Source: Periplaneta americana (lineage: Eukaryota > Arthropoda > Insecta > Blattodea > Blattidae). From it: a stretch of 64,000 nucleotides of DNA. Of this stretch, positions 19,819-43,261 are shown one piece after another; the stretch's first letter is position 1; each line of letters starts with the position of its first letter. Location of the stretch: positions 103,737,274 through 103,801,273 of the forward strand of contig NC_091119.1 in the NCBI RefSeq assembly GCF_040183065.1, in the 5' to 3' direction. The position numbers were made by a program, and so were the translations under genes. The notes under the pieces were generated by a model. It was not told where the DNA came from and ran no database searches. It saw only the letters and a list, made by a program, of their open reading frames with translations.

Positions 19819-19870
<52 letters not shown>

Positions 19871-20798: not shown

Positions 20799-21936
20799 CA
20801 AATTTAGTTTATCAAAACATTCAATTAATATGATGTAATTTTTGTTACTTACATAATCTTACTTCATGAGCTGCGTAATATTAATATGAATTGGCGATAT
20901 CTGATTATCACAGTTACACGTCCAGTAAAAGCTCTCTTCACTTTTGTCCACTCAGTAATCACTGTAGTAAAGTCAACTTCAACTTGAAGAACTTAGAACA
21001 GATGCAGCCCAGTACCTTTGCTGCCACAACTTGAAATGTTTACAATTTTAATAAAGGAAACGTGCAGTGGAATAAAAATATCTCATAAAGATCCAGTTAT
21101 TGAAAAGACTACAATTTATTTTTAAATCGACAAAACTGATTGTGTAATGATACATTACTGGATTGTAGAAATTTAAAATTAATATAGGGCAGATCAGATC
21201 AGATCAGATCAGACACTAAGGTTTTGGTGCAAAAATAAGGTTCAGATTAAAATAATGGGTGTATTTAATGTACGTAAATTATTAGATATCACGAAGTTAC
21301 ATGTCAGCATTTTTACCACAAATAAATTTATACAGAAGTTACAAACAAGCAATACATAAAAACAAACAAATAGAAAAAAAGACAGATATAGAAATGAAGC
21401 TCAGATTAAGAGTAGGGGAAGGCCAGAAATCTGCATAACTAAGGATTTGGATATTAAAATTGCAAAGGATGCGATAAAAGAAATGTAGGGATGTGATCAA
21501 GAAATGCAACTAAAGTGGAACTGTATAAAGATCGATAAGTTTGAGAGAGAGAGAGAGAGAGAGAGAGAGGAAGTGTAGAATCAAATGAATAGAGAAAAAA
21601 TATAAGTAGGCCTATTTATTGGAAGTGAGAATAATGAGAAAGAAAACTTATGTGTAGGTGGAGTAGTGAAAAACTGAAAATGAGCGCAAATAGCAAGAGT
21701 GAATAATAATAGCGAAAAAGTGTTAAGAGAATTGAATAAGTGACAACAAGAAAGTGGTGCTAAAATTTGAACTTTGTAACAGTAAAATAATATAAAAGAA
21801 AAATAGGAGAAAAGGTCAATGAAAAAATTAGGGTAAATGACACAATATGATAATGTATAGACAAAGTGAAATTAAGATTTTAGTGAATATTAGAGAAAAA
21901 GGGGGGGTTGAAAGAAGTAGCCTATGTATTATCTCT
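20799..21936. other. No gene recognised; two short microsatellites
   Basis: A (GATCA)n tract lies at about 21191-21213 and a (GA)n tract at 21543-21569. The 500 bases before the minisatellite are purine-rich on the plus strand. No coding signal. Confidence 0.5.
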
Positions 21937-22661
21937 GGTCCTCGTCCTGGTCCTTGTCCGGGTCCTGGTCCTGGTCCTGGTCCGGGTCCTGGTCCTGGTC
22001 CTGGTCCTGGTCCGAGTCCTGGTCCTGGTCCGGGTCCTGGTCCTGGTCCTGGTCCTGGTCCCGGTCCGGGTCCTGGTCCTGGTCCTGGTCCGGGTCCGGA
22101 TCCTGGTTCTGGTCCTGGCCCTGGTCCTGGTCCTGGTCCGGGTCCTGATCCTGGTCCTGGTCCTGGTCCCGGTCCTGGCCCTGGTCCTGGTCCTGGTCCG
22201 GGTCCTGGTCCTGGTCCGGGTACTGGTCCTGGTTCTGGTCCTGCTTCTGGTCCTGGTCCTGGTCCGGATCCTGGTCCTGGTCCGGGTCCGGATCCTGGTT
22301 CTGGTCCTGGTCCGAGTCCTGGTCCTGGTCCTGGTCCGGGTCCTGGTCCTGGTCCCGGTCCGGGTCCTGGTCCGGGTCCGGATCCTGGTCCTGGTCCTGG
22401 TCCTGATCCGGGTCCTGGTCCCGGTCCTGGTCCCGGTCCTGGCCCTGGTCCTGGTCCGGGTCCTGGTCCTGGTCCGGGTCCTGGTCCTGGTCCGGATCCT
22501 GGTTCTGGTCCTTGTCCTGGTCCGGGTCCTGGTTCTGGTCCTGGTCCTGGTCCAGGTCCTGGTCCTGGTCCTGGTCCGGCGGGTCCGGGTCCTGGTCCTG
22601 ATCCGGGTCCTGGTCCTGGTCCGGGTCCTGGTCCTGGTTCTGGTCCTGGTCCTGGTCCTGG
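21937..22661. repeat. (GGTCCT)n GC-rich minisatellite, about 725 bp
   Basis: About 120 hexamers of GGTCCT with variants GGTCCG, GGTTCT, GGCCCT and GGTCCC. It is GC-rich against an AT-rich background. No hexamer variant contains a stop in most frames, so both strands are open and read as Gly-Pro, Val-Leu or Ser-Trp on plus and Gly-Pro or Arg-Thr on minus. Variants are arranged in higher-order runs (for example GGTCCTGGTCCGGGTCCGGA recurring). I regard it as non-coding repeat, because no flanking exon structure is visible. Confidence 0.9.
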
Positions 22662-24605
22662 ATACAGCAGTTTTCCTTTGTTCAAACATATTAAATTGCC
22701 CTTTCATATCATTTTTGTTGTATTTCTTTCTACGTTTTACCCTGATTACCTGTAATTTGTAAGTACGTTTCATGCAGTTTTTATTTCTTCCACCAGACAG
22801 TATTGTTATACCATAAAGAAATTTAAAGAAAAAAAAATGGTCTTGTGGAATGAGAAAAACGCTAAGAAAATAACATCCCAAGATAATACTGCTACATAAT
22901 CAGTGCATTGATAAGCATATATTTTTCACGAAGAAGTATACAATGGTAATACTTATCATTTAAAATTATTTGGACCACAAAAAGCAGCAAATATTCTTCA
23001 TTTAACAAAGGAAATCGGATGTTGTATTCACTCACAAATTCAAAGCTACAAATCTCTTGAAGTAATTTCCAAAAGAACCGCTCATGTTATTGCAAGAGCG
23101 CAGTGAACAAAATCTATTTTATAGTACAACTTCTGTCACTTATATATGTCACCAAAGTTACACTTATTTCTAGTTTAATTTCATGGTAAATTTAAAAATA
23201 AATACCAGGAAATTATCCGTGTATCCAAATTAGCCGAGTTTTCCCTATTGATTAGGAATTATATAGCAATAAGTTTTTCGAGAAATAATACTAAGAGATT
23301 AATTATCAAGGAAGTACAGTAATTTAGAGTAAGGTAAATAAAAATTACAAATTTTACTGAATAGAAGCTTGTGTGGAATTGAGGGCAATTTTAGCTACAG
23401 AACTACGACGGCACGAGAAGGCAATAGCAGAATGCAGTTAATTCTCAGTTAGCAAGATGCAGTGTTCACAACAGTAATTCAGAAAACGGGAAACTTCTAT
23501 AACTCTATGATATGCCAAAGCATTTAATATTATCTGGAAAATGAAATTATGATTTAACAACATTCAAACATTATACTAATTTTATAATATTATAAAACTA
23601 TTTTATCTTCCTGTATTTAAGGTGCGATTACAATTGTAGCTGTAGATTTAATTTTTCTAGAATTTGTCTTTATTAAATTGGTCTTTTCAAAATTATTTCA
23701 CACATATGTACAATACATATGCACTCATGTAGGCCTAATGGATACGAATAGGAAACTACACTGTGTAGCTGATAATAATTTATTTAACTGTTCTAATGTT
23801 GTTATGTTAATGCCGATTATTGTATATTATTTCAGGCACCTACCATCTGCCCAAAGCCATTTCGTATGTTTTTTTTTTTTAATTGCAAGAAAACTCAATA
23901 TTTTGTGTACAATGTAAATTTAATATCGGTAACATTAAGTAACATCCAGTGTTATACTTAAAATATTGGTACAGTAACCATTTAGATTATATAAACGCAA
24001 ATAATTTATTTTTATTAGCGTTTCTCGAAAGGATACATGCTTCAGTTGCCTTTGATATAACATTGTTAGTCCGAAATTACATTTATGACTATTAATCGCT
24101 CTTTAATTGTTCCCTTTAATTTACATTTCCAAAAAAAAAAAAAAAAAGAACATGACAAAGAGATTTATCAACTTACTTTAAATGATTTTTAATCCAAATA
24201 GGCCTAATATTCAAAGAAAATTCTGGACGCTGTTTTCTTCTCATAATTATGTAAATAATTTATATTTAACTATATATCTAATTGTTTTTGTAACGGCTGC
24301 TCAGAGTTCGCTGTGGTGCTCCATGGATGGGTAATTTTTTAAAACATTGATCTGCGAGTATTGCATGATATTTCGTAAATTATAAAATATTACGGAACTC
24401 ATGTTCAATAAAAATGATTTGTAAGTTTTCTGAAACTAGTTATGATAGTAAAGGGAAGTTGACAGAGTCCCTTTTCTTTATTCTTTGTAACTTATTTAAT
24501 TTGCAAAAATAAACTGTACGAACTGTATGCTTTCAACGGTTTCACTACATCTAATACAGTTACTTAACCTTTATTTTAAAAAAATATTTGTAGAGTGGAA
24601 TAGAT
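22662..24605. other. No gene recognised
   Basis: AT-rich DNA with homopolymer runs near 23869 and 24131. No recognisable domain on either strand. Confidence 0.5.
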
Positions 24606-24621
24606 TGTACAACTAATTTCA

Positions 24622-24967
24622 TCTTCGGAATATGTATGATAAGAACTTCCTTGTGTTAAATATTAACGTACCTTGTTAACATGTTTCGACCTATTTTCAG
24701 TAATCTTCGGAACTGGTCGTTGTTGGTCTTGGCGCCTCTTGTTTCCTGTGTTGGTGCGTTCGTAGTGTAGAGTCAACACACAACTCAATTTCAAAACTAC
24801 GAACGCACCAACACAGGAAACAAGATGCGCCAAGACCAACAACGACCAGTTCCGAAGATTACTGAAAATAGGTCGAAACATGTTAACAAGGTACGTTAAT
24901 ATTTAACACAAAGTTCTTATCATACATATTCCGAAGTGATACAGTGTTAAAAGTTGTGTAATCAAGA
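24622..24967. repeat. Long near-perfect hairpin element flanked by a 16-bp direct repeat
   Basis: Arms 24624-24766 and 24796-24935 are reverse complements over about 140 bases with very few differences, separated by a 29-base loop. A short single-sided tail follows (24936-24967). TGTACAACTAATTTCA at 24606-24621 recurs at 24968-24983 with one mismatch, as expected of a target duplication. No coding content is evident; the two arms give mirror-image translations. It could be a fold-back transposon, or an inverted duplication inserted by LINE machinery. The transcript would form a long duplex RNA. Confidence 0.75.
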
Positions 24968-24983
24968 TGTATAACTAATTTCA

Positions 24984-25846
24984 GTTGGCTCTAAATACAT
25001 TGATACAAATGGTGCGAACTTGAGAAAGAGCCTAAACTATGTTTTTCCTTGGTATCACTAAATTTAAATGTACTTATTATCTGTTTCTATGTAGAACGGG
25101 AACATTGGGATATTTTCTTAGAAATCGTCCTTTTACTTTTCAAAAATCCCTGTTTTTCAGATGTCATTCATTAAAATCCTTTGCTCTAATATAAATTTCA
25201 GTGGTGTAATTTGAGCGAGCTAATCTAGAGAACTGAAATGTGAGGATTCGATCGTTAAGTGTAACTGAAGTGGAGCTGAGGAAAAGATCTAGGAATAATT
25301 AGTTAAGTGTTAAGGAGAAGACGCATAGAATAAACCAGTGAAAGGGAAATTAGTAAAGAGAGTTAAAATAAGTCATAAATGGTAAATAACCAACACTGAG
25401 TGTTTTATGTAGTACAGAGAGGAAGAATCTGGGAAGTGCAGTAGACAATAAATGAAAGTGAGTGCAAGTAGGGAGAAGATATACCAATGAAACAGAAAGA
25501 GATATAAGTGAATTGAAGAAGACTACTAAGGAAGTTACTACAAACATTCGAATTTTGTAACATTGAATGAATGCAAGAGTAAAATTCTGAGAAAATGTAA
25601 GTGAAAAATAGGGAAAATAATGTAGTACAGTAAAACGTAGAATATAGATACGTAAAAATTAGTGAATTTTAGTCAGAGATAAATATGCTTGAAGATAAAA
25701 AATTAGGGATAATAGTAATAGAAGATAGCAATGACAGTAGAAGAGGATTAGTTGGATTGTAGCCGAGAGTGTTTCTAAACAAGAGTAATGTACACAAGTA
25801 TTGCATAGTTATCAGGAATAGGATAGACAGAAGATAAAGAGTATTA
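24984..25846. other. No gene recognised
   Basis: AT-rich; 25250-25800 is strongly purine-rich on the plus strand. No coding domain seen. Confidence 0.5.
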
Positions 25847-25852
25847 CAACTA

Positions 25853-25884
<32 letters not shown>

Positions 25885-25924
25885 ACTACTACTACTATTG
25901 CAACTACTACTGCTATTGCTGCTA
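25847..25924. repeat. (CTA)n/(CTG)n compound microsatellite
   Basis: Alternating runs of CTA and CTG trinucleotides with CTATTG/CAACTA interruptions. Confidence 0.85.
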
Positions 25925-26221
25925 ATATAAATTGTTGTTTTCTATTTGTTTTTACAATGAAACGACTTAAGAGCCATAATCAGATAGTTCACCCTTTTCA
26001 ATGTACCAAAATAAAAAGAAAATAATTGTTATTAAAATGAATTTTGCTGCACTCATCTCAAAGTTTAGTGTGCTGTGATTTCCGAAAACGGTTAACAGCT
26101 ACTCACTAACGTGTGCTTAATAGTAATATATTTTTTAATTTCTGTAGTGACTCTTGTCTTCGTCTCCCTCTGGAACTGAATTGATATTCTCACTGAATCA
26201 GTTATACTGGCTTAAATATTT

Positions 26222-26720
26222 AATACTGGGTTGCAAGGGACAGTGAAGTGCATTCCATAACCTCTCCTATCCAAAACCCAACCTCAACCTGCTCGTGGTG
26301 CAACCTGCTTTTACAGATGAGGCTCTGGGGACCGAGTATTGGCGGTATAACCACACCATCAGGAATAGAGGAAATGCTATTTCATCTCTTACGCTGGCCT
26401 GCCACTGCGTAGAAATGTTCGACAAGTGGTACTTGTGAGAAAGGTCGGTGGACTCTAAAACTCCTCCCGGCCAGGTCCGATGGACCCATTAACCAACGAC
26501 AGGTGTGGCCTTCCAGTCATACTGGGGGTTTACGTGAGTGGGTGATGTAACCACCATTACAAACAAAAAATTGGTGCCCACTTAAAAAACGGTTACACTT
26601 ATGCTAATCTGTGAAGTTCTACTTGATGGATCCACCACAGAGAAATATTGGAGAGCAAGAACGCTATTGGCTTCGTTGCCAAAGCCCGGCATTAGATAAC
26701 AACAACAACAACAACAACAT
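26222..26720 (+). mobile_element. Interspersed repeat with (AAC)n tail
   Basis: A sharply GC-richer 470-bp block begins at ACTGGGTTGCAAGGGACAGT. It ends in CATTAGATAACAACAACAAC with an (AAC)n tail at 26699-26718, the look of a retroposed LINE/SINE 3' end. No protein domain or tRNA-like promoter was found. Classification is by end structure and base composition only. Confidence 0.5.
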
Positions 26721-27192
26721 ATTTAATACTTTAATTTAGACGTGTAGTTGCAAAATCAGATACATCACTTTTTTTCCGAAATGAGTTAATGTTGTATTTC
26801 ATATCTTCATATGATTCTACAACTGTTATAGCACTGTTATGCTCCAAAGCCAGATACATAACATGGATTTGTATAATGAAAAAGAGAATTGGTTGCAAAT
26901 CCTTAGTTCCTTGCAAACGTTTTTCCTTCGTACTGAAAAATTATGTTTTGATTTTGCAACTATACGCCTCAATTCACTAATGGAACGGGTCTTATAATCT
27001 TCACATAACCGATACACACTCTTACCCACCCATGCACACGACAGACACAAGCTGTCACTGGCCTTCATAGATTATTTCCGATACATGTAAATCTTATTTT
27101 AAGGGGAGATGTTGTATAAATTGAATTCTTACCTATTTTATGATAATTTCTTCATTTTTGTATATACAAATATCATTGCTGCAACAATTTAA
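26721..27192. other. No gene recognised
   Basis: AT-rich DNA. Overlapping short frames on both strands at 26731-27068 lack a domain. Confidence 0.5.
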
Positions 27193-27199
27193 ATTTGAG

Positions 27200-27427
27200 A
27201 TTACTTACTTATGACTTTTAAGGAACCCAGAGATTCATGGCCACCGTCACATACGCTCATCATCGGCCTCTATCCTCATCAAGATAATCCAATTTCTACC
27301 ATCATATCCCACATCACTCAAGTCCATTTTAATATTATCCTCTAATCTATGTCTCGGCCTTCCCAAAGGTCTATTTCTCTCAAGCCTCTCAACTAACAAT
27401 CTATATTCATTTTGGAGTCGCCCATTT
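27200..27427 (-). mobile_element. 3' fragment of the RTE-type LINE also seen at 59.7 kb
   Basis: Homologous base by base with about 59701-59933, including the ACTTACTTA tail, the TTTTAAGGAACCC segment and the ATTTTAATATTATCCTC segment. Homology ends at TCGCCCAT (27426). ATTTGAG occurs at both ends (27193-27199 and 27424-27430), a plausible 7-bp target duplication. Encodes only the last tens of codons of ORF2, with substitutions. Confidence 0.8.
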
Positions 27428-27430
27428 GAG

Positions 27431-28500
27431 TTTAGTAAAAATAATTGGGGCAGAAATGTTGGGGGGGGGGGAGTATCAAGGCACAGTAGGTCACGATAGT
27501 GAATATATCTGAGCCATTTTTAAGATAAGTTCAAAACCTCTTTGTCATTTTACTCCTAACAGAACATTCTTTAAAATGGTTGTATCATAAATTTGATATT
27601 CGTTTTCAAAATGTGAAAATAAAGAATACATCTTAAGAATCAATTTTGGAGATACCATTAGAGAAACATGTGAGGATATTATTTTATCAAATGCAACAAA
27701 ATAACAAATCTCTGTTACACAGAAAGTTTCCTAATTATCTAAGAATGTGTGTTTCAAATAAAATCCATGTATTAATAGTTCGAAGATATAAAAATATTCA
27801 CTCTTTGTATGAGAATGAAGCAAAAAATTAAAGTTACCAGAAATTGCAATTAAAATTTAGTGTAATTTAAAAACTCTGTGCTTTAAAAATAACAGCCTAA
27901 AGGGTTATATAAATGTGCATTAAATTTTGTGCGATGAAATTTTGAAATTTCAAAGATTATTTTAAACAAAGAATTTTTCTTTTTAAAAATTCACTCGTTT
28001 TCCACCACATTTTAACCATTCTTGTTCTTTGAAAACCCTATGCATCATAGTTTTAAAGATAGCGCTGCAGTAGTTGACAAGGGCATATATCCTCATTAAA
28101 TTTCATGCCATATATATTTCTCACATATTAAAGTGTATTTTACAGCAAAAACATTATTTTTCATTCAATGGTTTTCCACCATATTAAAGCCATCCTCCCT
28201 CCTCAACATCGCAAGTAGCATTTGCAATGAATTTTCCTATTCCTTTTCTTTTTGTATTAAAGTTTTATTTTCTCATTGCTTATCTATTTTTATTTAATTA
28301 ACATTAAGCAGGAATCTGAATGTTTATAGAATAATCCATTAACTGTACGTAAAAAAAAGAAAATATGACGCCCGAAGTTAATTTCACCTCTGTCCATTTC
28401 AAGTGGTGGATAGTGGTGAGAGTTGCTGGGAAATATACGAATATATTCCCGCATTATTGGCAATTAGTTCGGTTTGGTTAAGTGGTCATAATTTCACCTT
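27431..28500. other. No gene recognised
   Basis: AT-rich DNA with a G-run at 27462-27471. The 61-codon frame at 27646-27831 has no recognisable domain. Confidence 0.5.
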
Positions 28501-28511
28501 AAAACATTGGC

Positions 28512-28660
28512 GATGAAAGAGTAATGGAACAGAGGAAAAATTCTCTCCGGCGCCGGGTTTTCAGCTCTTGTGGATAAAGCATCAGCACATAGAGCTGAAA
28601 ACCCGGGTTCAAATCCAGGCGCCGGAGAGAATTTTTCTCCATTCCTTTACTCTTTCATCG
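28512..28660. repeat. Hairpin formed by inverted partial SINEs (family E)
   Basis: Arm 28512-28569 is the imperfect reverse complement of 28591-28660, sharing GAAAGAGTAATGGAA and CGGCGCCGGGTTTTCAGCTC. The right arm contains the T-arm of a tRNA-like head with B box GGGTTCAAATCC. The loop holds GGATAAAGCATCAGC, part of the same head. It looks like an inverted duplication of a SINE 5' region. Confidence 0.7.
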
Positions 28661-29115
28661 TATTATGATGCAGAATATCTGCATGGAAATATCATATGTA
28701 CTTCGGTACATTAGAATAATATATATGATATGCGTAAATCACTTCGTGATTTAAGACGGCGATTATTCCGTCGGATCCCTACCAACTAGTCACTCATAAC
28801 GAGTGCACCTCAGCACATGTGTGGACTTCAGTCCTACGTTCATAGACGTCTATGACGTAGTGCAGAGGGCGGCCACTAGAGGGAACCCAAGAGTTGGAAC
28901 TTAAACTGAGACGATTTTGTCCAACGCCGGGTTGGGTATCCGGTGTGGCTTAGCGGATAAAGCATCAGCACATAGAGCTGAAAACCCGGGTTCAAATCCC
29001 GGCGCCGGAGAGAATCTTTCTCCGTTCCATTACTCTTTCATCGTATGATGACGCAGAATATCTGCATGGAAATATCATGTGTACTTCGGTACATTAAAAT
29101 AATATATATTAAAAC
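28661..29115 (+). mobile_element. tRNA-derived SINE (family E), tandem with the hairpin copy
   Basis: The tRNA-like head 28938-29009 (A-box region GTGGCTTAGCGGATAAAGC, B box GGGTTCAAATCC) is followed by the tail ACTCTTTCATCGTATGATGA...GCAGAATATCTGCATGG. The same tail follows the preceding copy at 28645-28710. The unit therefore repeats as head, tail and spacer, then head and tail, over about 380 bp. The shared tail proves a retroposon rather than a tRNA gene. Confidence 0.75.
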
Positions 29116-29897
29116 ATTGAGTTTAGAAAAAAATATTTCAAAATTTTTACCATGTTTCCTTATTAAACTGAAAGCTAGGATGGAGTTTTTAATGTTGCTG
29201 TTGTTTTCTAATACCAGGCGTTTGACAATAAAATCACTTGTCCTCCTGCACTCCAATATTTTTCAAAGATATTGTCATGGTCAGCCACTGAAGCACAGAT
29301 TTTGAGGGAGTTGTTAATGTAGTTTCAGACAAAATATCACATAATTTTAAAAACTGCTAGCCATTCATAATTATTAACTACATTCAAGAAAACAAAGCAA
29401 ATGTATGAACTTACCTTACAGTAAGTCCATTGCCATCCAAACATTAATTTCAGTGCACTCTAGTGACAGCAAGAGAAAAAAGGATTTCTTAGGACTGAGG
29501 TTAAAAAAAAATAACTAAGAAAAAACGTAAATCTCTTTCCTATTGTATGGCCATAAAGATATAATTAATTCATAATGTACAGGTCCAAACGTTTCTAAGC
29601 GTGATGTGCCTATCAGGAAACAAAATATTTAAATGGAAAATGCGACCACAAGTGTCTATTTATCGCTATATTGAGTGGAACCAAGGGACGGAGTGTGATA
29701 TTCAGACATATTGTTAGAACATAAAGAAACAGGTCGCCAAATAAAATGAAAGGTTTGATGATAGGTAACATTAAGGAGTATATATAAATTACTATTACTC
29801 TAACAGAAGCTTTACTATGAACAAGTGGGGAGAGAAACATGGGAACACTCGGAGGGCAATCTATCTGAAAGTGGCTCTTAGAAGTACAATATTTATA
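29116..29897. other. Sequence downstream of the PM-repeat gene
   Basis: No domain recognised. No AATAAA polyadenylation signal was found on the minus strand immediately after the stop at 29898, which leaves open either a distant 3' end or a further exon. Confidence 0.4.
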
Positions 29898-32800
29898 CTA
29901 CTTACGCCTCAAACGACAACAAAGCAAACAAAATATATACCTTAAACAAGACCAACACGTCGTTGTTGTTTCCTCATCTTCATCTTCCGTTGCTAAGTGC
30001 TCCAATGATGGTCCAGGCATGGAACCTGGCAAGGATTCAGGCATGGGATCTTCCATCGATGATGCTAGCAGAGGAGTTATCAAGGGATCTCGCATAGGCG
30101 CTGGTAAAGGATTTTGGATGGGATCTAGCATGGGCGTTAACAAGGCATTTGACATGGGATCTAGCTTGGTTTCTGGCATGGGAACTGGTAAGGAATCTTG
30201 TATCGGAGTTGGCATGGGTGTTACCATTGGAGCTAATATTGGTAATGGCAAGGAATCTGACATGGAAGCAGGCATGGAATCTAATATGGGTGCTGGTATG
30301 GGATGTTGCTTGGTTGGTGACATGAGAGCCGGCACGGGATATGGCCTGGGTGATGGCAAGGCATCTGACATGGGTGATGACAAGGAATCTTGCATGAAAG
30401 TAAGCATGGAAAATGATGTGGATGTTGGTATGCGATCTGGCTTAGTTGGAGGTATAGGAGATGGCATGGGTTCTGGCAAAGCATCTCGCATTAGTGATGG
30501 CAAGGAATCCGGCATGGAAGCAGGCATGGGATCTGGTATGGGGTCTGGCTTGGTTGGTGGCATGGAATCTGACAAGGCATCTAGCATGGGTGATGCCAAG
30601 GAATCCGGCATGGAAGCAGGCATGGGATCCGGTATGGTGTCTGGCTTAGTTGGTGGCATGGAATCTGACAAGGCATCTAGCATGGGTGATGGCAAGGAAT
30701 CCGGCATGGAAGTAGGCATGGAATCTGGTATGGGGTCTGGCTTGGTTGGCGAGATGGAATCTGACAAGGCATCTATCATGGGTGATGGCAAGGAATCCGA
30801 CATGGGAGCCGGCATGGCATCAGACACTGGAGCTAGCATGGGTTCTCGCAAGGAATCTGGAATGGGTGATGACATGGAAGCTTGTATAGGATCTGGCAGG
30901 GGTGCTGTTATTGAACCTGATATAGGTGTTGCCATTGGAGCTGGAATGGGGTATGGCAAGGAATCTGACATGGGATCTAATATAGGTCCTTGTATGGGGT
31001 CTGGCTTGGTTGGTGGCATGGAAGCTGGCATAGGGACTTCTATGGGTACTGGCATGGGACCTGAATAGGTTGCTGACAAGGAATTCGCCATGGAATCAGA
31101 CATGGGAACCAGCATGGGGTCTAGCATGGATCCTGGCATAGGCGCTGACATGGAATCTTGCACTGGTAGTGGTATTGGATCTGGCATGGGAGCTGTCATG
31201 GGTCCTGGCATATCATCTGGAATGGCTGCTGGTCTGGGTACTGGCACGGGATCTGGCAAGGATGATGTCACAGAAGTTGGCATAGGTGCCGGCGTGTAAT
31301 ATGTCTCGTCATCTAGTACGGGACGTGGCCCAAAAAATATATATCTTAAACAAGACCACCAGGCATTCCTTCTTCGGTGCCTACCTTCTGCTGGCATGGA
31401 AGCTGGCATGGGTAATGGCATAGGACCTGGCATAGGCGCTGACATGGAATCTTGCATTGGTAGTGGTATTGGATCTGGCATGGGAGCTGTCATGGGTCCT
31501 GGCATATCATCTGGAATTGGTGCTGGTCTGGGTACTGGCATGGGATCTGGCAAGGATGCTGTCACAGAAGTTGGCATAGGTGCCGGCGTGTAATATGTCT
31601 CATCTAGTACGGGACGTGGCCCAAAAAATATATATCTTAAACAAGACCACCAGGCATTCCTTATTCGGTGCCTACCTTCTGCTGGCATGGAAGCTGGCAT
31701 GGGTAATGGCATAGGACCTGGCATAGGCGCTGACATGGAATCTTGCACTGGTAGTGGTATTGGATCTGGCATGGGAGCTGTCATGGGTCCTGGCATATCA
31801 TCTGGAATTGGTGCTGGTCTGGGTACTGTCATGGGATCTGGCAAGGATGCTGTCACAGAAGTTGGCATAGGTGCCGGCGTGTAATACGTCTCGTCATCTA
31901 GTACGGGACGTGGCCCAAAAAATATATATCTTAAACAAGACCACCAGGCATTCCTTCTTCGGTGCCTACCTTCTGCTGGCATGGAAGCTGGCATGGGTAA
32001 TGGCATAGGACCTGGCATAGGCGCTGACATGGAATCTTGCTCTGGTAGTGGTATTGGATCTGGCATGGGAGCTGTCATGGGTCCTGGCATATCATCTGGA
32101 ATTGGTGCTGGTCTGGGTACTGGCATGGGATCTGTCAAGGATGATGTCACAGAAGTTGGCATAGGTGCCGGCGTGTAATATGTCTCGTCATCTAGTACGG
32201 GACGTGGCCCAAAAAATATATATCTTAAACAAGACCACCAGGCATTCCTTATTCGGTGCCTACCTTCTGCTGGCATGGAAGCTGGCATGGGTAATGGCAT
32301 AGGACCTGGCATAGGCGCTGACATGGAATCTTGCGCTGGTAGTGGTATTGGATCTGGCATGGGAGCTGTCATGGGTCCTGGCATATCATCTGGAATTGGT
32401 GCTGGTCTGAGTACTGGCATGGGATCTGGCAAGGATGCTGTCACAGAAGTTGGCATAGGTGCCGGCGTGTAATACGTCTCGTCATCTAGTACGGGACGTG
32501 GCCCAAAAAATATATATCTTAAACAAGACCACCAGGCATTCCTTCTTCGGTGCCTACCTTCTGCTGGCATGGAAGCTGGCATGGGTAATGGCATAGGCAC
32601 TGATATGGAATCTTGCACTGGTACTGGTATTGGATCTGGCAAGGATGCTGTCACAGAAGTTGGCATAGGTGCCGGCGTGTAATATGTCTCGTCATCTAGT
32701 ACGGGACGTGGCCCAAAAAATATATATCTTAAACAAGACCACCAGGCATTCCTTCTTCGGTGCCTATCTTCTGCTGGCATGGAAGCTGGCATGGGTAATC

Positions 32801-33718
32801 GCATAGGACCTGGCATAGGCACTGATATGGAATCTTGCACTGGTAGTGGTATTGGATCTGGCATGGGAGCTGTCATGGATCCTGGCATATCATCTGGAAT
32901 TGGTGCTGGTCTGGGTACTGTCATGGGATCTGGCAAGGATGCTGTCACAGAAGTTGGCATAGGTGCCGGCGTGTAATATGTCTCGTCATCTAGTACGGGA
33001 CGTGGCCCAAAAAATATATATCTTAAACAAGACCACCAGGCATTCCTTCTTCGGTGCCTATCTTCTGCTGGTAGGTAATTGGAATATGGTGGTGGCATGC
33101 GATCTGGCATGGGAGATGGCATGCGGGCTGGCCTGCGAAATGGCATGTCAAATGAAATGGGAGCTGGCCCACGAAACCTATATCTTAAACGAGACCAGAG
33201 GCTCATTGCTCTTGGCGTGGGAGCTGGCATTCCAGTTGGCATGGGGGCTGGCACGGGATCTAGTATGTGACTTGACATGGGAGCTGGAATGATATCTTGC
33301 ATTGAAGCTCGCATGGGGTCTGGGATTGGTTCTGGCATGGGAGTTGACATGGTTTCTGGAATAGGTACTGATATGGTATCTTGCATGGGAGCTGGCATTG
33401 AATCTATCATGGGAGATGACATAGGCGCTGGCATGGATGCTGGCCTGCGATTCGACATGGGAAGTAGCCCACAAAATAAATACCTTAAAAAACGCCAGCA
33501 GCAACTCTTCGTTCTATTGTCATCTTCTTCTTCTGGTGGGTTCTGTAATGATGGTGCTGGCACGGGTGATGGCACGGGAGGAGGCACGGGTGGTGGCACG
33601 GAATGTGGCACGGGTGGTGGCATGGGATCTAACATGTGAGCTGGGATTGGTTCTGTCATGGTAGCTGGCGTGGTTTGTGGTATTGTACCTGGCTTGTCTT
33701 CCATGTATCCTGGTAAGT
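29898..33718 (-). CDS. Pro/Met-rich repeat protein with ten W/C-x-x-L-R-Y modules (large exon)
   Basis: I do not recognise this protein. The frame is open for about 1,270 codons to a TAG at 29900-29898. Most of it is degenerate Pro-Met-x dipeptide sequence. Embedded are ten short modules of the form (W/C)(W/C)x(C/F/R)LRYxF. The first is KSCCWRFLRYLFCG after an acidic run. The second is LWSRLRYRFRG. Seven copies of WWSCLRYIFFGPRP follow, and a last CWSCLRYIFCLLCCRLRRK ends the protein, again after an acidic run. The terminal Cys cluster plus basic tail suggests membrane association or palmitoylation (inference). The frame probably begins at a splice acceptor (33719). The first in-frame ATG is at 33704 in a poor context. 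GTAAGT at 29905-29900 overlaps the stop and could be a donor. No signal peptide is seen in this exon. Confidence 0.7.
31280..33070 (-). repeat. Tandem array, seven units of 291/294 bp, in frame with the gene
   Basis: The landmark CTTAAACAAGACCACC begins at 31345, 31636, 31930, 32224, 32518, 32728 and 33022, giving spacings of 291, 294, 294, 294, 210 and 294. All are multiples of three. Each unit codes about 98 residues, with basic RHRRRN, the WWSCLRY module, VLDDETYY and a Pro-Met stretch. The 291 unit lacks one Asp codon; the 210 unit lacks 28 codons. Units differ by a few substitutions, several conserved as R/I or A/S exchanges. Further degenerate PM repeats run on to about 30020. Confidence 0.9.
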
Positions 33719-33737
33719 CTGCAAGAAGCAAAATAAA
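33719..33737 (-). promoter_or_regulatory. Candidate splice acceptor
   Basis: On the minus strand the sequence TTTATTTTGCTTCTTGCAG directly precedes the long frame: a pyrimidine tract followed by CAG. The frame downstream starts with two bases of a split codon. This is the best acceptor in the vicinity and would place the true N-terminus in an upstream exon at higher coordinates, not identified. Confidence 0.55.
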
Positions 33738-33744
33738 CTTGATT

Positions 33745-34548
33745 GTTATGCATGTGTCACTGCATTCACTTGCTTTCAGTGAATGACATAGACCTAGTAG
33801 TAAGGCGAGGATACGTATTCAACTGCATAATTTACTCTCCATTTTCAAGTCATACAAAATCATTTTGTACATGTTTTGAAAGACAGTAGTAACGAATATA
33901 CAAAATTAACTGTACCTTTTTCTTCATATTTCAGGCGTTCCTGTGTATATTAACTATTGAGCATGCTATGCAGCATATTTTCAGGACTTCATGGCATAAA
34001 GCTCCAAATTAGCATACTTGGTAAAAACAATAATAATCTTAATTGTCAGCACATAATATTTTTCTCTTAACTGTACTCGATGGCGGAAATTCCTTGCATA
34101 TGCAATGTGGATTGGCAAAACCAAAACAATCACACTATGCATTTGTTCCATTGCACTACTGCGCAACAAGAACCATTTCCAAAGACATCTATCTACCTGA
34201 CTTCATCATCATCCATACAAGTTTTAGGTCATGTGGTCTATTAGATCTCATAATAAAGAGTAATTTTCTCTCAAACTCTTTATGGGGCTTCCCAGAAATC
34301 TTTTCCCCTAAGATAGATAGTGAAGCATAGCTTTTGGGATTCTGTGGGATCTCATACATCGCAAACGTCTCATGCAATTGTTCTCATATTTTGTATGAAA
34401 TTGAGTATTGATTACAGGCCGAGTTCTTCCATTACTTCATCGCTGCGCTTATGGTCTCATTTTTATATAATACTGTTCTTCGCATAAATCTTATTTCATT
34501 AGCTGTTCTTTCCCCTTAATATATTTGCCTCACTACCATAAGTCCATT
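33745..34548. other. Sequence upstream of the PM-repeat exon; no exon identified
   Basis: No confident first exon found. A minus-strand open segment at about 34377-34189 contains FERKLLFIMRSNRPHDLKL. It is only loosely reminiscent of the C-terminal loop of insect odorant receptors and has no supporting context. Confidence 0.3.
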
Positions 34549-34795
34549 CCTGTGGAGTAACGGTCACCTCGTTTGGTCGCGAAACCAAGTGGTCCGAGTT
34601 CGAATCCCGATCGGGGCAAGTTACCTGGTTGAGGTATTTCCGGAGTTTTCCCTTAAGGGAATAAGAGCAAATGCTGGGTAACTTTCGGTGCTGGACCCCG
34701 GACTCATTTCACCTGGATTATCACCTCCATTTCATTCAGACGCTAAGTAACGTGAAATGTTGATACAACGTCGTAAAATAACTCAATAAAATAAA
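34549..34795 (+). mobile_element. tRNA-derived SINE (family A), second copy
   Basis: Matches the element at 240-489 throughout: TGTGGAGTAACGGTCA, a B box GAGTTCGAATCCC, the TTACCTGGTTGAGG segment, the AAATGCTGGGTAACTTTCGG segment and the CAACGTCGTAAAATAA end. Changes in the B-box flanks suggest an older insertion. A clear target duplication was not found. Confidence 0.85.
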
Positions 34796-34799
34796 AAGA

Positions 34800-35420
34800 A
34801 CTGCCATAACAGAGTACAGGGTTTGTTGAAGTCGTATTCTAGTGCTTTTCTGTACCAGGGAAGGTTTCATTACTCTATTGATCATTTACATAGTCTTGGA
34901 GTGTTTTACAGTTTTGCTCATTATTCTAAATAATTATCAAATGTTAATTTGTAGCCAATATATGTAATATCATTTGCTCTTTCTAAAATTTTGTCTTCCA
35001 AACATATTTTACTAGGGACAAGCTATTTTCGCCAGAAGGCGAAACTTTCTTTTTCTGTATTATTTCCATGTTATATTTTGCAATGATATTTTACTAATGT
35101 ACTGAGTATTGTAGATCATTTTCTGTAGGTGCTATTAAAACTAGGTTATCCACAAATATTAATTAACATATTTTTAAATATCTGTTTATCTCCAACTCTT
35201 TATATCGCATGGCTCTCCATTCCTGAATAATTTTTTTCGTGTGCACTATAAACAGAAAAAGAGAAACACCGCAAATCCGTTTCACTCCTATGTTAATTTC
35301 GAGCTATTCTGAGGTCGTGTTATTCATTTTGTCTAAAATTAAATTTATCCTACCTGACTTAAAAATCCCATAACCACCTTCTCCTGTTTCACTTATTCTC
35401 AGTTGGCATCTCTTTTGATA
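34800..35420 (-). pseudogene. LINE reverse transcriptase remnant
   Basis: Minus-strand translation with frameshifts gives, in order, a block resembling the palm (LFIVHTKKIIQEW), FVDNLVLIAPTENDLQ (position of the F-A-D-D catalytic box, here changed to V-D-N), KVSPSGEN, NDITYLGYKLTFDNYL and finally PVLCYGS. This matches an insect LINE whose ORF2 carries the Y-L-G-Y block after the palm. The catalytic second Asp is replaced by Asn, and several stops confirm decay. Confidence 0.65.
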
Positions 35421-35624
35421 AGTTTATTCATACACACTAACATCTATGATGGTATCACGTGTGTAGGATCTTTGGGTATATCTGTAGGCCATGGAATTTT
35501 GTTCTGACTCTGTTTTTATTGTCGTGTGTTATAAATGGCTTGTGTTCATGTAATTGATTTAGATTTTATTTTAATGTTCATTATATTGGTGATTAAGGGT
35601 GTTATGAATCATGATATGCAAATT

Positions 35625-35745
35625 TCCAATCCAGTATATGCCTTCGTGACTGAGGGAAACCATGAAAAACATGAGTCAAATTGGCTGGGCACGGAGTTTT
35701 AACCCAGAATTTTTCGAATATGGGCCTAAAACATTACCAGTTTTC
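35625..35745 (-). mobile_element. Degenerate SINE-like fragment
   Basis: On the minus strand, TTCTGGGTTAAAACTCC resembles a B box and is followed by CGTGCCCAGCCAATTTGACT. Weak, single-copy evidence within this window. Confidence 0.25.
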
Positions 35746-36113
35746 TTTATTGCTTATCCATTTTTGTAATTTTATTGTTAGTTACAATTATAACAATAAA
35801 CGTTACATTACAATAGACTATTAGGTCATGCTGTGTTGTGCAATACTGTCTAGTTGTGCAATTAAACGGTCTTCGGAGTAAACTTTGTTACTTAATCTTT
35901 CATCCAGTGTTCGCACTATGTAAGTTTTCGGGGCACTGTACTGGAATGTGACGCTTTTTAGATTGTAATAATGGTGATGGTATACCTTGCACCAAAATAT
36001 ATGACGGTCTTTCTTCCTGGAATTGTAAACCCTCGTAAATCCCTATCTTCTTAACCCTTAGGCGCGTGGCATAAATACAATGTGATAATGACTTCAGGAA
36101 TTGGCAACTCAGC
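35746..36113. other. No gene recognised
   Basis: AT-rich flank left of the MULE element. Confidence 0.5.
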
Positions 36114-36451
36114 TAAATTTTATATAAGTGTCTATCTGTAGCATACAAGAGACGTCTAATTTGGGTCGGATGAGATCGGTCGAGATCGGTCGCGCTGTGA
36201 GGAGTAGAAATTTTCAGGTGTAGCTAGCTATATTGTATGTCGAGTTCTTATTGGCTACCATCGACTAATGTGTGATTCGGAGACAAATAGAAATGTCGCT
36301 CTCAAACATTCCATGTGACGTCATAGAGAGGTCGGGCTTCGCGATCAGCTGTATGCTCTGTGCTATTGAAGAGAGATAAACGTTTCAATTTCGATTATAA
36401 AGTAATTCATTTCACTTATAGAATTAGTTACAAAACACTTTGACATTTCGA

Positions 36452-39064
36452 CGGCTTAGTGTCAAAGGACACTATCGCCAAAAATCGACTTTCTGAATTA
36501 TTTGTAGTATCATGTTGTACAAAGTAGCCTTTATAATAGTGTGAAAGTAATATGTCTCTACAAGTAATAGTTTTTTTTGTTTTTTTTTTTGTTTTTTTTT
36601 TTTAAGATAGTGTTGTGTTAATTTAGACAGATGCTGAGTGTCAAACAACACTATCTAGACTTAGTTTTCTTTGACAATAATAAAATATAAACTAGAAGAA
36701 CACTGAGTTGAGATAGTGTTCTTTGTCTCTAAATTATTTAACATTTCTAAGATTTTATTGGTGACACTTCCTCAGAACATACAACCAAGAATGTAATACA
36801 ATCACCATACTGTTTATTGTTAAAGATTTGATAATTTTTTTATTAATAGAACACGCATTCTTAAATAAATTCAGTTTGTAAGAAGTTTACAGTTTGTAAT
36901 AAACGTTCTATATCTGGACTGTACACCTTAATCTAGGTAACAGGGTTGATGAATTGGTATTAAATGATAAAACATAGGTAGCACAGTAAGCCTAAGGTTG
37001 CGGTGCATCCGGATCAATGATGAGCCCAAATGTTGGGGGGAGGGAAATTCAGGAATGCTAATGTTCAGACAGAAAACCTTTCATATTAACGTCATATTTT
37101 CAAAAATAATTTTAATATAGCTTTTCATAATCCCAGAAAGCATCAATGCAATAAATGTTATAAATATGATCACATGTCTGAACTTAAGAAGATAGAAACG
37201 GAGGCAGTTCGTCAGTCCCACATTGAAAGAAAGGAAGCAGCTCAAGTAAAAGAAAATTACAAAATTATGGCATCAGTGAACGTTCTTTACTTTTTTTAAT
37301 TTTATTTCGAAGCTGTGCGCTACAATCCAAGTTTTAAAATGGAATGAGTGTTTTATAAACGTAGATTAGCTGTAGGCCTATATAATTTGACCGTGTATGC
37401 TGTAGCCAACAGAACAGCACAAAATTTTATATGAAACGAGATAATTGCAGAAAGGGAAGCTGCAGTAGTACCATCACGTCTCTTTGCTCAAATGAAAAAA
37501 CTGCAGAATGGTAAAAGGTTCTATTTCATGTTCGATACTTGTGGAGGAATGTGCTTATATCAACCATGCTCCTCTACGCTGCGAATGTTTTTGACATACC
37601 TCAAATTGAACATATTTTTTTTAACCAGGACATTCACAAATGGACACAGTCCACGCGAACATTGAAAAAAAAACAACCAAACATACAGAAATATTTGATC
37701 CATCAGGGTGATACACTATACTTTAAGCTGTATCAAAAATAGAAGTGAAACAGAGTGATTTAATTATGTAAGAGAAATTCAGAAGACATTAATAAAGAAC
37801 AAGAAAGTTGACACTAACGGAAACATTGTAAGATGGCTGGATATAGTGTGGTTCCAGTATCGGAAAAGTAACAGTGAACACTTATTATTTAAATACAAGT
37901 ATGATGAAGAATTCCAAAAATTCAATGTACAAAGCAAGATTACACTTGGATTTAGGCTGGATAATCGTCAGCTTAAACCAAAGCATCAAGGAGCACTAAA
38001 AATATACAAGATTAGAAAATTAAAAATCTATTGCAACTGTGTAAACAGAATATTTTACCAGGAAATTACCAATTCTTTTACAATAGTTTAAAAATGGAGA
38101 ACAGGAAATCGTAATATAAGATACAGTACTCAAAATGAAGAGCAATGAGTGATTATAAAATTAAGAGGAAATTTCAAATTTTTATATGAGAGGTGTAGAT
38201 ATTGATACTATTCAAAACATAAAATACTGAATCAAATATAATATAATATATTCATATTATAATTTTATTCAATGTCATTTAGGGCACAAATTCTGAGTTA
38301 AGTGTGTTTTCTTTTCATTACGTGCAGACAGACTTTTAAATGAACTGAATTTGTAGAATTCATTATTTTTTAAATAAATTGATCATTAATTGAATAACTT
38401 TTTCGTCCAAACCCTCATCAGCTGTGGTATATTAAAGTAACATTAGCAATATTTAAAAACACTGATGTTCTAAAATGCAATGTAAAAATGAAGATAACTT
38501 TGCTCTTTTATTATTTTATAAATGCACTGTTAAAATTATTATTTCAGATAATAGTATAAATTGATCTAATAATGATAATATTATGCTTTTATGCTGCGTA
38601 AATAATATTAACTGGTATTTTTATAATCTTACTGATATGTTCTAAGTTTAGATAATATTCCTTTATGAAGAAGAAGAAATTGATATTTGCTGCTCACCAC
38701 AATAATTAAATTTATTAATTTGCATTGTCAAATAGCTATAATTTTTTATTAAAATGTTTAAATTCAATATTTTGGCATTTATTTTTAACACTGTCTACTA
38801 AATTGAAAGCTTCGTTAGTAATAAAGAACACTATCTCCAAAATGTGTTAATTTTTAAGACAATACTAAAATATTTCTAGAAAATATGTACTGTATTGTAT
38901 TGTCTTTAGGTTTGTATTTGATATATATACAGTACATATGATTTAAATTTTATCAACATATCTCTTAAATTAAAGCAGTAACAATAAAATGTACACAATT
39001 AAACTGTTTTTTGCCTCCCCTGTAAAGTTGTGATTTTGGAGTTAGTGTCCTTTGACATTAGGCG
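36452..39064. mobile_element. Nested TIR element, 4-bp TCGA TSD (Sola-like guess)
   Basis: CGGCTTAGTGTCAAAGGACA at the left end mirrors the right end, whose reverse complement reads CGCCTAATGTCAAAGGACAC. TCGA flanks both sides (36448-36451, 39065-39068). Copies of the motif AACACTATCTCCAAA or its complement recur near both ends (about 36465, 36606, 36645, 36713, 38826 and 39046), as multiple transposase-binding sites would. A 4-bp duplication is known for Sola elements; the assignment is inference. Confidence 0.6.
37500..38091 (+). pseudogene. DDE-type transposase remnant of the nested element
   Basis: Frames give MFDTCGGMCLYQ, then QMDTVHANIEKK followed by a I-F-D-P-S-G-Y-T segment, and VWFQYRKSNSEHLLFKYKYD. 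These correspond in order to blocks of a widespread insect transposase-like protein (D-G-C-x-x-Q-N; G-H-T-Q-M-E-x-D-x-V-H-x-x-I-E-x-K; W-F-x-Y-x-K). Stops and frameshifts between blocks show it is inactive. I recognise the pattern but am not certain of the superfamily name. Confidence 0.55.
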
Positions 39065-39068
39065 TCGA

Positions 39069-40085
39069 TTTATTCTAAGTCTCAGATATTGTGTTTCTCT
39101 TGAAATGAATAGGTGTAGTGGTCTAATAAGTGTTACATACATTTGTACGCCAATTGCTTTTAGACCTACACTTCTAAAATGTATCTTATTTATAATTAAT
39201 AAGTAATGATTGCACAATAAAACATTAACGATTGTACTGTTGGGTCGAGTGAAATCAGTCGCGCATGTGTGATTTTGGTTCGATGCTTGTTTCCTGCATG
39301 TAAGGTTCCTATATTGTACTAACATAATATGAATATCCCCACAAAAAATTGATTAAATCCAACATAAATAATTAATATAAGAACATCATTAATAGTATGT
39401 TATGAAATACCATATAGGTCACTCACCATTTAAATCCAATCTACAAATGAATGTGTAGATACCAGTTTTTCACTTTACACTGCTGAACTGTACATCACTG
39501 TATATAAATCTTGCCACCCATAGATAATGTTAGGATAAAATGAATAAACTGTCTTATGAAGAAACGAATTTAACAAATACAATATTACTAAATAACAAAC
39601 AAACAACAACACTAAAGAAACATGAACTGTACATATATTTTATTGATCTGTTTCCTTTCTTTGCAAAAGTGACAGAGAAATATTTAGAACTTCTTTGCGG
39701 ATTGGCTTGCTCATATCAGATTTGTTTTTGTATTTCTCTTTTGTTCAAAACGGTCAGTCTGTCGAATAGTCTATCTCTGGTTAATTTTATGAGAGTTGAT
39801 ATGTCTTTGTCTAGTCTTGTTTTTTTTACAGTGCAGGTATATGTGCTTTAGAGCACTAAGTTGCATCCGTTCTATGTGCATATTAATATCTATACCACAA
39901 TTATTTCCTACGGCAGCAGGCCCAACACACTACGTTCTTCATGCAGTAGTAGTAAAATATTAAAAAAATAATGATAATTCAGTATCACCTGTTAAATACT
40001 GAAGGATTCCTACCAAAAGTTTAGCATAAGTGTTCTCGTCATTTTCTGTGTGAAGAACTCGTAAATACTTGTATGTTACTGCCTG
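39069..40085. other. Internal MULE sequence, no gene recognised
   Basis: Contains GGGTCGAGTGAAATCAGTCG (39241-39260), which resembles the MULE terminal repeat (GGGTCGGATGAGATCGGTCG) in the same orientation. This may be a duplicated subterminal block. The frame at 39540-39851 (+) has no domain. Confidence 0.45.
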
Positions 40086-40772
40086 CTAGGTTAAATCGTT
40101 TATTTTATTCCTAATGTTCTTACTCCATACTTTTTCGATGTGCCAGGTGTAAAACAAGCGTTTATCGGGAGGGCCCATCGCAGTTACCCAAGCTTTATAC
40201 AGTGCGATCCAAAAGTCCCTCCGCAGCTCCATTAGTTGTAGTAATCCTGTAGACAGCTGGTACGTAATCTTGTAGAAAGTTGACATTTTCCCATTAATTC
40301 CGGTTTGACAATCTCACATCCCCAGTCAATCATATGCTTAGCGGCCAGTGCTGCCACTTGAATTCTCTGCCTGGTGGATTCTCGGCTGCACCGTGGCTAC
40401 AGAAGCACTGCGGAGAAACTTCTCGCTCGCACTGTAGTAATATCTATTGCCCAGGCACTTGGAAGTTCTTCATTCGCCTTCTAGCTTCCCGGTATAATTT
40501 AGAGTCCTAATCCAAAAATTTTGATGCCAAAGCTGGACATTTTCGTAAACCTTTATAAAATTCTTCTTTCATGTCACTCATGAAGATTTTGTGGCCAGGA
40601 TACCAATTTCTTGTTTAACACAATTAAAAAACAAAAGATAGCACATTTTCATCTGTCCTATTAGATATTAAGAAAGTCCCTGGAAATCCCTGATTCATTT
40701 CATCAACTGTCATTATTGCGATAAGTTGAAATCCATAATCACCCATACCATGGGTAGGCCCTACCATCAATA

Positions 40773-41027
40773 ATTGAGGGGTTTGCCGGAAAAAGGGCGT
40801 ATACGTCAATATGGCTAAATGAGATACATGCAATCTAAGATTTTAAAACGCACCTGAATAAAATGTTATACACGCATACAGCCCTTTCCTGCAGGTATGT
40901 ACAGTACAATCAAAACAAAATTCCGCTATTATAATTAGCGAATTATTCACTACATTTTAAACCGTTTTTCCGAAGAAGGGCATATAGGTCTATCCGCCTT
41001 TCTTCCGGCAAAGCCCTCAATTATTAC
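40773..41027. mobile_element. MITE inserted in the MULE catalytic core
   Basis: Inverted ends: GAGGGGTTTGCCGGAAAAAG near 40780 against CTTTCTTCCGGCAAAGCCCTC near 41015, with ATAATTGAGGG extending the symmetry outward. About 250 bp, AT-rich, no coding. It interrupts the transposase just before the T-H-G block. The target duplication could not be fixed because the outer bases (AATTATT) are themselves palindromic. Confidence 0.7.
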
Positions 41028-41287
41028 TTTCTCTGAGCCATATGTTTTTAAAATTTCTCCCTGGGCTTTGTATTATAAGAACAAAATCTTCTTCTTTCAA
41101 AAAATGTGCTGTCATGTCAGGAGCAGTTCCTTGTGGCTTATAATCAGGGAAAGGAAGTTCATGCCCTAAAAATGTGAAGAATATGTATGCATTTATGCCG
41201 TAAAAATTGTTGATAAATATGCTACAAAGTAGTCATTATCAGTCTGAGATTATTTTAACAGAATAATAAGGTATAGGTAACTTACGT

Positions 41288-41690
41288 TTAGTCTATGGAT
41301 TTTGAAATGCTAGCCTCATTGCTGAATGTTCCATTTATGCTGTTACAGTTCACAACTAAGCAGTGTCGTATGTTTTCTGTTGTCATTCTTTGCCTGTTGT
41401 CTCTAAGCATAGCTTTGTAGCGCGATAAATTTCGTTCTACGTCACAAGAAGTAAGAAGGGCTTGCACAAAAGCTGTGAGCTGTTCTACAGAACATTTTGT
41501 TGGTTTTTGGGGTGTTTTTCCTTCGAGAATATCTTGAATTTCTTTAAGTTGATAATATCCAGGGTTTTTGGAAAGAATATTTGCTGTTTTCTCATTCACT
41601 TTATCTCCTACATTTTTTTGGAACTGATGTTAAACTGGATATTGTTCTATCGAAATCTGCTCAAGACTGCAGTAAAGGAATACTAATTGC
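41288..41690 (-). pseudogene. hAT transposase C-terminal dimerisation fragment
   Basis: The frame gives NEKTANILSKNPGYYQLKEI and then SCDVERNLSRYKAMLRDNR followed by M-T-T-E-N-I-R-H. This is the C-terminal hAT dimerisation region: the S-x-D-V-E-R-x-F/L-S-x-Y-K-x-M-L motif is diagnostic. It lies between two parts of the MULE gene in the same orientation and is not part of it. The remaining hAT gene is absent. Confidence 0.75.
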
Positions 41691-43261
41691 TAACTCAAGA
41701 GGCTCCCTATGGGGGCGCCATCGTTATGTTCAAAATTCATAAACATAAATTAGTCGTGTTTACAAGGTTACATACTTTTAAAAATGAGGGAAAGACAAAT
41801 AAACATACATAATAAGCAGGTTCCCTGCATAAATGTTAAAATATGATGCTTTTATAAATAGAGGCAAAATATGCACATTAATGCACAATAAAAGTAATAT
41901 AATTGTATTCAGAAATGTGTGATTCATGTAGATAATCTTTCAGCATATTCAAACAATGATAGAGAATAAATATGCAAATACATGAACTTCCTTTCCCTAC
42001 TTATAATACAGAATACACTGATCACTGCTTTCTGTAACTTCCTGTATCCAGCATTACGCATCCCCTCTTCCGAAAGATTGAAGGCTTTCTCAGTATTATA
42101 CAGTCCTTTTTAGTTAAGAGATGTACTGTTTCTAAACTGGATTCTGTGACAGAGTCTCGTATCTCATTCAATATGGTGTCAAATGGTATCTTGTTAGCTA
42201 TCTTACTGGCTGTTTCCAGGCGCTGAGAAGAAGAGAGAAACAAATGGCCAAGGTCACTTCCATGCCCAACATGTGTGTCCGTAAATTATAACTTCCAACT
42301 CTCTTATTTTCACACTGGCCGGACAAAAAGCATTAATTTTTGCTGCCCTGTATTTGTATATATGCCTTTGTCTGTTTCACGTAGGCATGTAATACTCAAC
42401 TGTGGTAACAGGAAAAATAGTGATGCTTAATGTTACTTGCTGTTTTCTGACACGCTCTAACTTACTGTATATAAAGTTTTCTCTGGTCTCCACTTCTGTG
42501 TTTTTCTTCCATTTATGAACTTCTTCTAAGTTTAGAAATGTTTCCGATTTAGTTGTGATATATTATGAATTTCATTATAATGTTTTAATCATTCATATTT
42601 GGTTGTTTCATATGAACAAAGAGAGCAATGATGTTTTGATACATTCTTACGCGTCACTGCTTTTAACTGATGCACCTGACTTTCGTGTTATTTCAGAGTT
42701 TGTTTTCTTGATTACTGAGCATCACACATTTCACATTTAAAGATTTTGTCACTTTTAAACCTATTATATACAATATTATGTTTTTTTTTTTTTTTTTTTT
42801 TTTTTTTTCCATGCCTTTTAAGATTCTTCACATGATTGAACTGCGCGTCATAATAATCGCACTTGAAGGACTTGCTTACTTTCACAACATGCTTTACTTT
42901 CTTATGAGTTTGTACATTACGTTTATAAGAAAGCTGAGGAACCACAAAACTTACATAAAAAGTATGGTTATTACTAGTTACATTATATCAATACACATCT
43001 AAATAGCACAAATAAATAGAGAAACAAATTTAACAAATTACAGAAAAAACACAGACAATTCTATGAGATTTCGAAGGCTGCCGCCAGGATGATGGCATTG
43101 GCCTACACGATATAGACCACAGTCTAATACGCGTATATATACACATACACGAGATGGCTCTTACAACGGCAGACGACCGATCTCGACCAATCTCTCCCGA
43201 CCCATCAGACACGCAGAAATTGAGACTCCTGTTTGCTACAGCTAGACGCTTGTAAATTTTA

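Follow-up and report, generated by a model that had tools for sequence, protein, structure and literature searches.

On the minus strand of the 64,000-nucleotide stretch of DNA analyzed here (the window), an open frame occupies positions 29898-33818, corresponding to 1,306 codons from stop to stop and, from the first ATG at 33704, to 1,268 amino acids (aa). This bears out the roughly 1,270 minus-strand codons given by an earlier reading made without database searches (the sequence-only reading). The encoded LRY protein is rich in Pro (24%) and Met (10%), and its coding exon is placed at 29898..33718 (-). Just upstream of the exon, at 33719..33740 (-), lies a splice-acceptor-like polypyrimidine tract ending in AG (TTTTGCTTCTTGCAG), whose sequence directly before 33718, TTTATTTTGCTTCTTGCAG, was rated a good site and is identical in all seven copies of the gene that were read. 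Position 33718, the upper limit given in the sequence-only reading, coincides with the first base after this acceptor-like site. No upstream exon of the LRY gene was found, and the nearest downstream AATAAA or ATTAAA is ~700 bp from the frame, which weighs against reading the frame as a gene. Several of the searches reported below used 29898-33686 as the query, with the first six residues left off.

The window frame contains ten LRY modules: one N-terminal, one of the form LWSRLRYRF, seven of the form WWSCLRYIFF, and one C-terminal. The count given in the sequence-only reading was thus correct, as were its seven central Trp-Trp-Ser-Cys modules and its placing of the first and last modules after acidic runs, but its pattern of an initial Trp or Cys was slightly off in that the second module has Leu first. 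The N-terminal module CCWRFLRYLFC follows the acidic run EEEDD (33459..33503, -), the second module lies at 33159..33203 (-), and the seven WWSCLRYIFF modules are held in a 294-bp, 98-codon tandem repeat with one shortened unit (31124..33166, -). A Pro/Met-rich linker composed of 96-bp and 12-bp tandem repeats is found at 30462..30821 (-), and the frame closes with the acidic run EDEDEE and the C-terminal module CWSCLRYIFC (29901..29987, -; EDEDEETTTTCWSCLRYIFCLLCCRLRRK). Modules of the terminal type are present at the C terminus, near the N terminus and, in degenerated form, inside the repeat, where the seven WWSC modules make up a degenerated, recently homogenized array. The tandem part has a period of 294 bp and a sub-period of 12 bp, both divisible by three, and the plus strand is likewise open for 399 codons (29869-31068), so the open frame alone is weak evidence for a gene. 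Indeed, tandem units of 12 and 294 bp preserve a frame mechanically, and we counted this against the gene reading. Codon tests inside the tandem units, for which 55 units picked by a pattern from the seven copies were compared, were uninformative because the units are homogenized.

Two features absent from the sequence-only reading emerged from searches of the genome to which the window belongs (3.23 Gb, 91 contigs; the only insect genome searched), namely, dispersed near-identical copies and many diverged relatives. Probing the whole genome with 377 bases of the repeat yielded 314 matches. A protein probe comprising the last 200 residues identified at least 32 near-identical places (96-100% identity) on 14 contigs and in both orientations, eight of them on contig C15; this search scored 150 of the 4,598 first-look candidates, so its counts are lower bounds. 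We read six copies beside that of the window across the gene, seven in all. Outside the tandem part, the six were 0.8-1.2% different from the window, and near the gene each of the seven was 0.29-0.42% off the majority. All seven were open from the same ATG to the same C terminus and encode proteins of 1,026-2,447 aa with 7-12 LRY modules: 1,268 aa in the window, 1,431 aa in the C2 copy, 1,371 aa at C15:180.9M, 2,447 aa at C9:17.75M (the longest), 1,387 aa at C3:53.67M, 1,300 aa at C3:68.5M, and 1,026 aa at C12:10.5M. Single changes aside, the first 30 and last 45 residues are alike across these copies. In the frame at C9:17.75M, the LWSRLRYRF module and a spacer lie inside a higher-order repeat, and many modules read SCFRY, not SCLRY.

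We then considered the state of the frame across all near-identical places, which for 25 of the 32 was judged from frame length around the C terminus. At 31 of the 32, the C terminus lies in an open frame of 1,064-2,485 codons; the exception, at C2:116.92M, carries a TAA and has a frame of 619. The sequence-only reading proposed that frame-breaking alleles in other individuals would refute the gene; of the 32 copies in this genome, one breaks the frame and the other 31 are open. Flanking sequence (17.45 kb) showed 0.33% substitutions per copy and 21 non-triplet indels; this count leaves out the indel-rich stretch at 24.6-24.95 kb and indels in simple sequence and therefore predicts fewer breaks. 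At these flank rates, 9.3 of 32 copies (using the mean frame length) or 11.0 of 32 (using 3.8 kb) would be expected to be intact, compared with the 31 observed (P about 5e-16 and 9e-14, respectively). For stops alone, 19.8 of 32 would be expected intact (P 4e-6); these P values assume independence, and the copies are not fully independent. It is this behavior of the copies that places the frame above chance. Amino acid change in the non-tandem parts, on the other hand, is close to neutral (dN/dS-like ratio ~0.85) and was counted against the gene reading: the C-terminal part (471 columns) showed 30.5 non-synonymous and 11.5 synonymous changes (42 in all; ratio 0.86), and the N-terminal part (122 columns) showed 8 and 3 (11 in all; ratio 0.83). 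The plain reading of these alignments would be that linker residues drift within a frame that is itself protected, as are its ends. With 31 of 32 frames kept and all seven whole copies open, the data argue for a selected coding family.

The same protein search returned at least 44 further places with 25-53% identity that match through the C-terminal module. Diverged places were defined as lying at least 20 kb apart with a match reaching query residue 190 or beyond (the terminal module spans 182-200); their similarity stems partly from a common Pro-rich composition, and two of the 44 were read directly. Forty-one of these places lie in frames of 385-2,741 codons, and the other three, near C14:66.3M, lie in frames of 210-214 with stops. 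Stops were also seen in two more matches, at C8:61.004M and C12:54.766M, both of which have longer open frames from their own cluster next to them, and several matches fall within one frame at C12:54.75M, C4:73.73M, and C8:61.24M. Some diverged relatives match to the last residue of the window's C-terminal module. In the two that were read, RRTKNGCWSCFRHLFCGLCRLFRRK and RRTKGSCWRCLRNIFCWLHRLFRRK follow Glu runs and align to that residue, and the matched ends are likely true C termini. In the seven near-identical copies read, the module ends at the stop codon. Both relatives share the CWxCxRxxFCxL core of the C-terminal module in the window, and in all three sequences Pro-rich linkers lead, in frame, into an acidic run followed by CWxCxRxxFCxLxRxxRRK. 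The N-terminal module of the window (EEEDDNRTKSCCWRFLRYLFCGLL) also resembles the modules of the two relatives. Since the core in the relatives matches the C-terminal module and the N-terminal one resembles them, the module is the common part of the LRY family. The presence of the module at the match end in diverged relatives supports the earlier suggestion of growth through duplicated copies of a terminal Cys/LRY module.

Protein, family, and structure collections and viral contigs yielded no credible relative outside the window's genome. The sequence-only reading knew of no family of this kind, and searches of Pfam, PHROGs, and the PDB, none of which gave a credible match, agree with it. Four candidates were discarded. 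P0001 (E 0.27, with the 8,000 candidates sharing most words scored) is a low-complexity match in which no module was seen, and P0004 (E 0.71) is another, in which none was seen either; a further protein search returned no match at all. Form-deh_trans (PF09163) scored 22.3 bits against a cut-off of 22.1, and phrog_208, a PHROGs profile of unknown function (E 0.0055), was judged spurious. Because the PF09163 and phrog_208 matches cover stretches of 17-31 residues of the repeated part, none significant alone, and because the two relatives scanned do not match PF09163, we took both as chance summed over the repeats. No report on the LRY family was found in the open-access literature on cockroach genomes, giant transposons, segmental duplication, and orphan families; the family is apparently unrecognized.

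The gene sits in a dispersed duplicated block that covers 5071..64000 of the window and continues past its end, reaching +6 kb or more in C2. All six fetched copies match the window over tens of kilobases on either side of the gene. In C2, the block extends for about 70 kb (216,314,000-216,383,999), with each piece fetched matching another copy wholly or partly; within this extent, window positions 49.0-63.5 kb were represented by three 700-base samples and ~2 kb at the left were not covered. At 5071, the window copy parts from those of C2 and C9; this position was dropped as a shared left terminus because C2 and C9 stay together further left. The segment 5071..14311, found in the window, C2, and C9 copies, is absent from C3:53.67M (an insertion or a deletion), whose left side is more diverged (85-97% in the pieces compared). 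Other breaks fall at 14312 (C3:53.67M), 14867 and 60562 (C15), and 64922 (C9). The breaks compared revealed no common terminus, inverted repeat, or target-site duplication, and the ends of the block lie beyond the stretches compared.

Around the gene, the block holds pieces of LINE reverse transcriptase and of mariner-like, Harbinger-like, P-type, and copia-type elements (reverse transcriptase, DUF4817, MADF, and TNP-like are database matches; the other element names come from reading of translations). The P-element-type transposase at 51610..52076 (+) matched PDB entry 6p5a (E 1.2e-4) and Pfam TNP-like_GBD (30 bits), and its RNase H N-terminal and GTP-binding parts lie in different frames. 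In the window copy, the RNase H N-terminal part (16.7 bits) and a THAP-like ORF 37 kb away at 14588-14920 (+; 17.1 bits) both scored below cut-off, and no intact P-element transposase frame with THAP, RNase H, and GTP-binding parts was present. A giant P element, suggested by the THAP and GTP-binding matches, was rejected on finding that the transposase spans three frames with stops; this transposase is a frame-broken fossil and not a working gene. Several other features of the block were recorded. A 727-bp CTGGTC hexamer array at 21935-22661 can be read through in several frames of either strand (as Pro-Gly, Arg-Thr, and others) and is very variable between block copies. A 1.6-kb segment at 61198-62840, which includes a LINE ORF1-like frame (61298-62359, read from the translation), is absent from the C9 copy and has TATCGATACCTGG at both edges, as after a recent insertion. 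A Mariner/Tc1-like remnant at 45657-46771 (+), with a DUF4817 helix-turn-helix and, by reading of the translation, a transposase-like C terminus, lies in a region aligned in 5-6 of the 7 copies. Rfam matches to the tRNA family were found at 28939-29010 (+), 5852-5924 (+), and 5532-5604 (-); the pair near 5.5-5.9 kb sits in an inverted repeat and may represent tRNA-derived short interspersed elements.

Taken as a whole, the best explanation, in which we have moderate confidence, is that the LRY gene belongs to a large, probably lineage-specific, protein-coding family. Its members would consist of long disordered linkers rich in Pro, Met, Ser, and Asp, built in the window member largely from 12-bp (four-codon) units, and of short helical modules of the form acidic run, (R/T)TK, CWxCxRxxFCxLxRxxRRK, the C-terminal copy of which would be the defining feature of the family. 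Extra internal modules may have arisen by duplication followed by degeneration (WWSCLRYIFFGP), with array length shifting in multiples of three such that the frame survives. The hydrophobic C-terminal module contains Cys and Trp and has a basic end, and a single-sequence AlphaFold2 model of the last 60 residues consists of one helix over residues 36-58 with a pLDDT of about 90 (89-92 in the last two blocks of ten); this predicted helix fits the membrane attachment that the sequence-only reading raised as a possibility. From these features, we infer a working that is most likely multivalent, in which the basic Cys/Trp-rich helix would dock on a membrane, perhaps through S-acylated Cys, or on a common partner, the linkers would space the docking points, and the last module would serve as C-terminal anchor. 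The window member has been carried recently to at least 32 places, within a block of tens of kilobases where it was followed.

Segmental duplication via recombination between repeats could have spread host DNA bearing a gene of an expanding family; this is compatible with the best explanation, and we give it about an even chance. The flanks carry decayed pieces of several transposon kinds that are common to the copies, the breakpoints vary, and some copies share a contig at distances of 1-4 Mb (for example, C9:17.75/19.35M and C8:141.9/143.4M), as such duplication would produce. At least 32 copies on 14 contigs at such similarity is, however, much for so plain a mechanism, and since duplication alone keeps no frames open, the gene must then be selected in most copies. 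A different question is what the protein does. It may be a low-complexity protein that is secreted or has a structural role, akin to silk, cuticle, or glue, and whose Cys/Trp modules act as cross-link points and not as membrane anchors. Pro/Met-rich tandem repeats with regular Cys/Trp modules, the wide range of lengths, and the increased dosage that extra copies bring are consistent with this, but a basic Cys-rich helix at the extreme C terminus after an acidic run seems unlike cross-linking repeats, and we consider this reading unlikely.

Somewhat less probable still is that the block is a selfish mobile element, be it a giant transposon or another kind, with the LRY protein as cargo or driver, kept intact since only working copies spread. 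Dispersal in both orientations over 14 contigs, the close similarity of the flanks near the gene (only ~0.3-0.4% off the majority per copy in seven copies), the C2 extent of about 70 kb, and the retention of the frame in 31 of 32 places would all suit such an element. However, the breaks share no terminus, inverted repeat, or target-site duplication and vary by copy, the P-type transposase pieces are broken fossils, and the flanks look like old transposon-littered host DNA. Because the P-type transposase is split over three frames, we took the block as duplicated host DNA over a giant transposon. The bolder version, in which the block would be a very large selfish unit in an insect, either mobile or driving, and the LRY family, frame-protected, variable in module number, and membrane-docking, would amplify its own chromosomal surroundings, is doubtful and given the least weight of the readings in which the frame is translated. 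Finally, it is highly improbable that the frame goes untranslated and arises simply from non-coding repeats of 12 and 294 bp, for although units in multiples of three, a plus strand that is itself open over 399 codons of the region, and near-neutral amino acid change are in its favor, 31 of 32 places are open against 9-11 expected, diverged relatives keep the module in frame with linkers, and, among the frames listed for the plus strand, those over the 294-bp array are interrupted roughly every 97 codons.

On the favored reading, a selected coding family, this is a large orphan family whose short terminal module is new and of which one member is present in 32 or more near-identical and almost always readable copies. 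It offers a clean case for asking how short tandem DNA gives rise to new genes and why some of them amplify, and because the copies have diverged so little, both their mechanism of spread and selection on the frame can be tested directly.

Giant eukaryotic transposons such as Polinton/Maverick, Teratorn, and Terminons, as outlined in PMC6431247, resemble the LRY block in being large dispersed units with near-identical copies that carry a gene other than a transposase. The LRY block differs in that no ends, target-site duplications, or working mobility gene were found and in that its flanks are fossil-laden. Ampliconic or drive-type families, such as the wtf genes of fission yeast, have many young copies with in-frame variation in repeat number. 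LRY copies are likewise many and young, and their repeat number varies in frame; the LRY family differs in showing no evidence of poison or antidote function, alternative transcripts, or drive. CYSTM-type proteins combine a Pro/Gln-rich N-terminal part with a C-terminal Cys-rich membrane module, and the LRY protein is like them in having a low-complexity Pro-rich part followed by a short Cys-rich hydrophobic C terminus. It differs from them in lacking a Pfam match to any such family, in its module CWxCxRxxFCxLxRxxRRK, which follows an acidic run and is repeated, and in its size, as LRY proteins often exceed 1,000 aa.
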